Positions 5,829 to 8,749 of a stretch of 64,000 bases of DNA are shown here, in pieces. Both the position numbers and the translations under genes were made by a program. The DNA comes from Arcobacter sp. CECT 8986. GTDB lineage: Bacteria; Campylobacterota; Campylobacteria; Campylobacterales; Arcobacteraceae. The stretch is taken from NCBI RefSeq assembly GCF_004116725.1, contig NZ_PDKG01000004.1, positions 62,001 to 126,000 on the forward strand, in the 5' to 3' direction. Under the pieces are notes generated by a model that saw nothing but the letters and a program-made list of their open reading frames with translations, was not told the origin of the DNA and did not search any database. Numbering within the stretch: position 1 is the first letter of the stretch; each line of letters begins with the position of its first letter.

Positions 5829-5854
5829 AAAACAAAGGCACTCGCCTTTGTTTT
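5829..5854. terminator. Strong hairpin terminator, probably ending the beta-lactamase transcript
   Basis: AAAACAAAGGC (5829-5839) pairs perfectly with GCCTTTGTTTT (5844-5854) around the loop ACTC. The minus-strand side is followed by TTTTACTTTTT-like sequence. It lies beyond the TAGAC repeat cluster, downstream of the beta-lactamase gene and upstream of the chemoreceptor promoter, so it would insulate the two units. Confidence 0.65.
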
Positions 5855-5885
5855 ATTATGATTTACATCATCTCTAAACACATTT

Positions 5886-6144
5886 TAGACTACATTATCC
5901 TTAGATAGACTTACTTAGTCAAAGTTAGACTCAGTAAGACAAAATCAAAAAACTCAACTTAGACTTTTTTAGACACTTTTAAAACTACAAAATACACCTC
6001 ACAAACCACCTATTCATAGGAGATACTGAGAATTAAATTTTATTTCAAAATGAGTTAGACAACTGTGGTTAGGAAATGGTTAGGAAAAATATTTTGAGTT
6101 GATTTTGGATAGACATATTTAGACTATCTTAGACAATTTGAGAC
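5886..6144. repeat. TAGAC pentamer cluster A, 10-nt phased
   Basis: This non-coding stretch downstream of the beta-lactamase gene is built of TAGAC-type pentamers in register. They start at 5886, 5906, 5916 (TAGTC), 5926 and 5936 (AAGAC); then 5960 and 5970; then 6056; then 6110, 6120, 6130 and 6140 (GAGAC). Within each group the spacing is exactly 10 nt, or 20 where one is missing. All point the same way. One copy of a 34-bp direct repeat lies inside. Apart from this and the hairpin at 5829-5854, I see nothing else in the 480-bp gap between the chemoreceptor and beta-lactamase genes except a 24-codon reading frame at 5803 that I do not believe. Confidence 0.8.
6055..6088. repeat. 34-bp direct repeat, copy 1 (3' side of beta-lactamase gene)
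   Basis: Begins TTAGACAACTGTGG and ends GGTTAGGAAAA. It matches 7019-7052 at 33 of 34 positions; the only difference is G at 6078 against A at 7042. The two copies lie 964 bp apart in the same orientation and bracket the beta-lactamase gene. Confidence 0.85.
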
Positions 6145-6152
6145 ACCTTATT

Positions 6153-6905
6153 TTATAAAATATTTTTGGATTTTAATGCTTTATAAACTATCTCTTTTCT
6201 AAGGTTTAATTCTTCTCTTTTTATATCAGCATTTAAAGAAAAGAAATATACCTTATTATTTGTTTTTACATAACCTACATACCAACCAATAGCTCCATCC
6301 CATCCACTTTTTGCTTTTAATTCATATTTATCATTTTTATCTACTGTTATAATATCTTTAACTATACTAATATTGTTTTTAGAAATTGGGAGATTTTCAT
6401 TATAAAGTTTTTTTAAAAAATCTATCTGCTCATATGCAGATATTTTCAAATCACCATTTAACCAAAAAGATGATTTATCTTCTCCTACTGTTTTATTTCC
6501 ATAGTTAAATTTTAAAAGATAATCAATATATTTTTCTTTTGATATTTTTTGTGAAAATTGTTTATAACACCAAACACAACTGACTGTTATTGCTGATTGT
6601 AATGTTTGATCTTTATTCCAAAGTTCATATCCTCTTTTTACTCCATCCCATTTTATAATATCATCCTTTGTTGTAATCAGATTTTCATTTAATGCAATTA
6701 AAGTATGAGGTATTTTAAAAGTTGAAGCTGAACAAAATCTCTTATCAGACCTTTTTAAATTATATACATATAACTCATCACTTTTTAGTGTTGTTACTAC
6801 TAAAGTTCCATTAATATTAAACTCTTTAAATATCTTTTCAAATGATTTATCATCACCATTCAATAAAGTAAAACATAAAAACAGTAAACTAAAAAATTTG
6901 ATCAT
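6153..6905 (-). CDS. Class D (OXA-type) beta-lactamase
   Basis: Periplasmic serine beta-lactamase. Numbered from an upstream in-frame ATG at 6917, the active-site motifs are STFK (catalytic Ser65, Lys68), SCV (113-115), YGN (139-141) and KSG (203-205), followed by the conserved GW. A signal peptide, MIKFFSLLFLCFTLLNG, is evident. I prefer the ATG at 6905 because it places this hydrophobic run at the N-terminus; the 6917 start would add MDEV and has no ribosome-binding site. The TGATAAAAT upstream could be an extended -10. The CDS lies between two TAGAC-repeat clusters and inside a 34-bp direct repeat pair, unlike its housekeeping neighbours, which suggests separate acquisition. The substrate range cannot be read from sequence. 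Confidence 0.93.
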   Translation of the reverse strand: MIKFFSLLFLCFTLLNGDDKSFEKIFKEFNINGTLVVTTLKSDELYVYNLKRSDKRFCSASTFKIPHTLIALNENLITTKDDIIKWDGVKRGYELWNKDQTLQSAITVSCVWCYKQFSQKISKEKYIDYLLKFNYGNKTVGEDKSSFWLNGDLKISAYEQIDFLKKLYNENLPISKNNISIVKDIITVDKNDKYELKAKSGWDGAIGWYVGYVKTNNKVYFFSLNADIKREELNLRKEIVYKALKSKNIL

Positions 6906-7018
6906 TACTTCATCCATTTATTTTTTTTCATTTTATCAAAAAGAAACTATTAGGTGGTTGAGAGGTAATTTACATTCCTACAACTGATTTAGACAAAAGT
7001 AGACATTCTAAGTCATAC

Positions 7019-7052
7019 TTAGACAACTGTGGTTAGGAAATAGTTAGGAAAA
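7019..7052. repeat. 34-bp direct repeat, copy 2 (5' side of beta-lactamase gene)
   Basis: The second copy of the repeat at 6055-6088, 33 of 34 positions identical and in the same orientation. Both copies contain one TAGAC followed by two TAGGA units 11 nt apart. Confidence 0.85.
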
Positions 7053-7058
7053 GTAGAC

Positions 7059-7081
7059 ATAGTACCCCAAAAGGGTACTAT
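7059..7081. repeat. 9-bp hairpin downstream of groEL
   Basis: ATAGTACCC (7059-7067) pairs with GGGTACTAT (7073-7081) around a 5-nt loop. No T-tract follows on either strand, so it is at best a weak terminator for groEL. It may be an RNA 3'-end stabiliser or part of the repeat element. Confidence 0.5.
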
Positions 7082-7114
7082 AAATAGACATACTTAGACA
7101 AATTTGGACATCTG

Positions 7115-8749
<1,635 letters not shown>

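Follow-up and report, generated by a model that had tools for sequence, protein, structure and literature searches.

Phased GTCTAA arrays beside an Arcobacter groEL gene as probable integrase arm-type sites at both ends of a 1.24-kb beta-lactamase cassette

The phased TTAGAC (GTCTAA) arrays that lie on both sides of a beta-lactamase gene next to groEL in the window (the whole 64,000-nt stretch of Arcobacter sp. CECT 8986 DNA analyzed here) are, judging from sequence comparisons, probably (at a rough probability of 0.8) arm-type sites of an Arm-DNA-bind (P4-like) tyrosine integrase, placed at the two ends of a 1.24-kb cassette that was integrated site-specifically. This reading is based on the duplication of the core ATGATGTAA, the presence of an empty site in a sister species, the movement of the unit between genera, the attP-like character of its joined ends, and the occurrence, at integrase attachment regions, of arrays that agree in type, spacing and strand. 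The features of the element and its surroundings are listed in Table 1.

Table 1. Features of the groEL-associated element (positions in the window)
Feature	Position	Strand	Evidence or remark
Integrated element, 1,243 nt between two ATGATGTAA copies	5872..7114	-	Target duplication, empty-site comparison; also in G073, G074
groEL-side copy of recombination core ATGATGTAA (last two codons of groEL and stop)	7115..7123	-	
Distal copy of ATGATGTAA	5863..5871	-	
Native groEL terminator-like hairpin, displaced beyond distal core	5830..5854	-	Matches post-groEL sequence in G005
Proximal arm, GTCTAA-type sites	6989..7109	-	+ strand TTAGAC at 6989, 6999, 7019, 7053, 7084, 7094, 7104
Distal arm, GTCTAA-type sites	5885..6144	-	+ strand hexamers at 5885, 5905, 5915, 5925, 5935, 5959, 5969, 6055, 6109, 6119, 6129, 6139
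37-nt repeat, proximal copy	7019..7055	-	Two TTTCCTAAC inside, 11 nt apart
37-nt repeat, distal copy, 95% identical	6055..6091	-	
Hairpin TAGTACCCCAAAAGGGTACTA within proximal arm	7060..7080	-	Sequence; identical in G073
Cargo: intact class D (OXA-type) beta-lactamase gene, 254 aa	6153..6917	-	NCBIfam NF012161 above cut-off; Pfam PF00905
groEL, target gene	7115..8749	-	Protein intact despite insertion

A sequence-only reading of the window had described TAGAC pentamers in two clusters around the beta-lactamase gene, 10 nt apart and all in one orientation, and this array proved to be real. On the + strand, TAGAC starts at 5886, 5906, 5926, 5960, 5970, 6056, 6110, 6120 and 6130 in the first cluster and at 6990, 7000, 7020, 7054, 7085 and 7095 in the second. 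Sites with a single mismatch stand at 5936, 6140 and 7105, and variants include TTAGTC at 5915; the opposite strand holds no TAGAC within the array region. The repeated unit is better described as TTAGAC N4, or as GTCTAA N4 when read on the strand of groEL. Within the 478 non-coding bases (5872-6152 and 6918-7114) there are 15 TAGAC, compared to a mean of 1.46 and a maximum of 8 in 5000 dinucleotide shuffles. Pairs at exactly 10 nt numbered 5 (shuffle mean 0.004, maximum 2), and pairs at 10, 20, 30 or 40 nt numbered 11 (shuffle mean 0.013, maximum 3). The 64-kb window as a whole has no excess of TAGAC (64 observed, 84 expected), and the clustering is therefore local. A genome-wide search, proposed in the same reading as a check on whether composition alone could account for the repeats, returned five matches to TAGAC N5 TAGAC in the host genome (G000, 36 contigs), all of them at the groEL locus, compared to two for a reversed control pattern; the composition-only expectation was thus not upheld. 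The shuffles and the host-genome count together rule out chance or base composition as the source of the array, and the variation of the spacers among sites rules out an ordinary tandem repeat of one decamer. The two clusters also share a 37-nt repeat which, together with a similar three-site array, is found on either side of the bla gene at an offset of 964-965; these repeats may be binding sites of an accessory factor.

What that reading missed is that each cluster forms one end of a single mobile element. The final nine bases of groEL recur at the far end of the element in G000, G073 and G074, and second copies of ATGATGTAA in other relatives are chance matches inside genes. The distal flank in G000 is 94% identical over 133 nt, native terminator hairpin included, to the sequence that follows groEL in the sister species G005, whereas the proximal (groEL-side) flank has no match to this empty site. 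In G073 the best match in the same comparison is weak (78% over 134 nt, with gaps), and it is likewise weaker in G074, in which the genes of the usual neighborhood come after the distal ATGATGTAA copy. The insertion is site-specific, exactly at the groEL stop codon. The cargo is a single intact class D beta-lactamase gene, and the element encodes no recombinase; nor were a transposase or rep, par or regulator genes found within its 1,243 bp. No matching pair of terminal inverted repeats was found at its ends, and the arm sites are all in one orientation. The hairpin within the proximal arm probably serves groEL as a terminator in place of the native one. Arcobacter butzleri is known to have a class D beta-lactamase (PMC6477937).

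When the element ends were joined in silico, as in a circular form, ATGATGTAA was found with GTCTAA-type sites on both sides, in a single orientation. In G000 the arm sites start at -263, -253, -243, -189, -103, -93, -69, -59, -49, -39 and -19 on the minus side of the joined core and at +14, +24, +34, +65, +99, +119 and +129 on the plus side; an extra one-mismatch match at -35 overlaps the -39 site. Most of these positions are kept in the joined core of G073, with a 1-nt shift on the proximal side. The lambda-type attP of tyrosine integrases consists of a core with an arm array to either side, and the predicted joined form of the element is attP-like.

The distribution of the element among relatives points to its movement. 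In the complete chromosome G073, which is from another genus, it stands after groEL and is 95% identical to the G000 copy over 1,209 nt; the two groEL genes are 85% identical and the genes beyond the element 74%, whereas the non-coding arms are 96% and 89% identical. The unit has thus been transferred horizontally as a whole, together with its arms. A more decayed copy is present in G074 (protein 92% identical), and in G085 the protein is 82% identical and the arms are degenerate. In G004 (L026) the array motifs surround a different, broken RibD_C/dihydrofolate-reductase-like gene, intact relatives of which occupy the same post-groEL place, without arrays, in G001 (L040) and G002 (L033). Free decay of the arrays between strains, which the sequence-only reading had said would speak against it, is seen in part: the arrays are intact in two genera and decayed in G074, G085 and G004. 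Arrays are absent from nearly all relatives. Of 397 genomes searched in the phylum, 4 had three TTAGAC at 10-nt spacing with one mismatch allowed, in the three groEL units and in G161; the 104 genomes of the family added only G088, where the array resembles a tandem decamer, and G089. In G003 (L032), the closest relative of G000, the sequence about 200 nt after groEL resembles the proximal arm marginally (score of 90 compared to 78 for the best shuffle), perhaps as the scar of a lost insertion. Relatives of the OXA protein, approximately 70%, 66% and 60% identical, are encoded directly after groEL, without arrays, in G177 (L232), G589 (L233) and G396 (L234), which belong to three other families of the order; these pairs are either older insertions with lost arms or an older gene order. 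No DNA match to the element was obtained among plasmids and phages, and plasmid-borne OXA proteins are less than 60% identical to the cargo. In viral contigs the exact core string had no match, a search for a groEL end plus array gave 13 matches that are apparently chance or coding matches, and the 14-base accessory motif matched 96 times, with no TTAGAC clusters near those read.

Integrases with an Arm-DNA-bind_3 domain (PF13356) were gathered from the family, and motif pairs were counted in 68 distinct upstream regions. A first strict count of TTAGAC around 30 integrases had given little signal. RTCYAW pairs at lags of 10, 20 and 30 nt numbered 29, 27 and 14, with other lags at 3 or fewer, a signal that emerged after orientation and variation had been taken from the sequences, the motif being partly fitted; at lag 10 there were none on the opposite strand and none in coding sequence. 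Because RTCYAW had been widened after some of the loci were inspected, the count was redone with the window's own GTCTAA as a fairer test. With one mismatch allowed, lags of 10, 20 and 30 nt gave 27, 18 and 13 pairs, and the antisense strand gave one peak of 18 at lag 23. The arm motif of known integrases is similar to GTCTAA, not identical. At many integrase loci the array begins within approximately 10 nt of the 3' end of a tmRNA or tRNA; in G161 it lies between a tRNA-Sec gene and the integrase gene, and in G089 directly 3' of a broken integrase gene. No GTCTAA triplets were found at 30 tyrosine-recombinase loci of G000, G073, G074, G004 and G085, and a search of approximately 5 kb downstream of groEL in some 60 relatives, with a few integrases of one family as queries, revealed no helper integrase.

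Further observations were made at integrase loci and in viral contigs. In contig C58 of G089 (L402, 2993-4210 and 4500-4680), a similar array-bearing stretch follows approximately 340 bp beyond the GTCTAA array at the broken integrase gene. The host has an Arm-DNA-bind integrase at its tmRNA gene (L182, contig C3 of G000, near 94599), and the phased motifs upstream of it are of the TTCTAA type, a different arm-motif variant. Viral contigs contain 61 stretches with a strict triple array. Those at L098, L102, the L104 group and L105 adjoin Arm-DNA-bind integrases; many others are not beside an integrase, some adjoining terminase or unrelated genes and some being plain tandem decamers. Since viral arrays also lie away from integrases, the array pattern alone is not proof, and it is the place beside a core that counts as such. 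In L106, L120, L122, L133 and similar viral contigs, TTAGAC decamers with identical spacers stand in tandem, often adjoining terminase or other phage genes rather than an integrase.

According to the proposed mechanism, an integrase supplied in trans would bind the arms, at about one protomer per helical turn, and bridge them to the ATGATGTAA core. The circular cassette could be inserted or excised at groEL by recombination at ATGATGTAA; its insertion would leave GroEL intact and supply groEL with a new terminator. Arm-type sites are well known, for example those of KplE1 IntS (PMC2951348), and all five arm sites of ICEMlSymR7A IntS are required for integration (PMC11963761). Like these tyrosine-integrase att sites, the element has a short core in the end of a host gene with repeated arm-type sites adjoining it, and arrays with its type of motif and 10-nt spacing stand beside the Arm-DNA-bind integrases of the family. 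It differs in having no integrase of its own, in carrying up to 18 or so sites over both arms as compared to the five of ICEMlSymR7A, and in its target, which is the groEL stop codon and not a tRNA or tmRNA gene. It also resembles integron gene cassettes, in which a single resistance-type gene has its own recombination sites and the recombinase is elsewhere; however, in place of a folded attC it has direct arrays of double-strand sites that surround a fixed chromosomal core, and no integron platform was seen for it. In the literature, as far as it was covered, groEL is not reported as an integration target of this kind in Arcobacter-like bacteria, nor are cassettes of this type described.

One alternative, which we regard as unlikely, is that an integrase island at groEL lost its middle, that the att arms and one gene were left, and that this remnant later spread through ordinary uptake of DNA, with no integrase acting in trans. 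In a cis-mobilizable element (CIME) the integration and transfer genes are lost and attL and attR are kept (PMC5704250), and the present element, with only the beta-lactamase gene between its arms, formally fits this published definition; the decay of several copies (G074, G085, G004) is also in line with a remnant. However, the compact two-armed unit is 95% identical between genera, compared to 85% for groEL and 74% for the other flank, which indicates that the element moved as a unit when it was already small; no flanking tract is shared, and its arms are conserved to the same degree as its gene. No larger relative of it was found at groEL. Elements usually called CIMEs are much larger than 1.24 kb, whereas this one has that length and a single gene, is conserved as a unit across genera, and has a related unit with other cargo.

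We consider it quite improbable that the element is a DDE transposon or MITE-like unit targeted to the groEL end, where its transposase would generate a 9-bp target duplication, and that the arrays are binding sites of this transposase. The duplicated block is indeed 9 bp, a usual target-duplication length, and arrays of binding sites are found at both ends of Tn7-like elements, which the element resembles, as it does MITEs, in being short, in standing at a conserved gene end and in having several sites (here predicted) per end. Yet it lacks inverted terminal repeats, its array sites all point in one direction, it has neither a transposase nor a relationship to one, and the same type of array adjoins tyrosine integrases. 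The sequence-only reading had suggested a cooperative DNA-binding protein acting in centromere function, replication, recombination or repression. A binder occupying one face of the helix remains the correct view, and among these functions the evidence selects recombination, because of the duplicated groEL target, the empty site in the sister species, the horizontal transfer of the complete element and the similar arrays at integrase attachment regions. That the arrays are sites of a regulator, nucleoid, replication or partition protein unrelated to mobility is very improbable: phased sites would suit any cooperative binder, and the array-less OXA genes next to groEL in G177, G589 and G396 mean that some of the groEL-bla neighborhood may be independent of the arrays, but the arrays are missing from nearly all relatives, travel with the cargo between genera and recur at integrase attachment regions, and the unit is bounded by target duplications and has no rep, par or regulator gene.

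Under the arm-site reading, an odd-looking array is explained as a recombination site, and GTCTAA-like motifs placed every 10 nt on one strand would provide a simple signature of integrase attachment regions in the bacterial family of the host. A beta-lactamase gene annotated merely as a chromosomal gene beside groEL could travel as a 1.24-kb unit, its mobility being overlooked in annotation because the element has no integrase, transposase or inverted repeats. A broader and tentative proposal, with the odds somewhat against it, is that Campylobacterota harbor a family of minimal cassettes at the groEL stop codon, each with one gene, no integrase and a complete double-armed att site; their cargo would vary (beta-lactamase, dihydrofolate-reductase-like), and a P4-like integrase would move them in trans, as an integron-like form of gene capture on lambda-type att sites. 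If such mobilization in trans is true, these cassettes would be overlooked carriers of resistance genes, and the exchange of cargo would be directly testable.

The sequence after groEL has another recurring feature. In L036, L039, L044, L048 and others, a hairpin pair with strings such as GGTGATGTGC(A/T)AAAGCACC recurs in many genomes, and it looks like another family of repeated elements at the groEL end.
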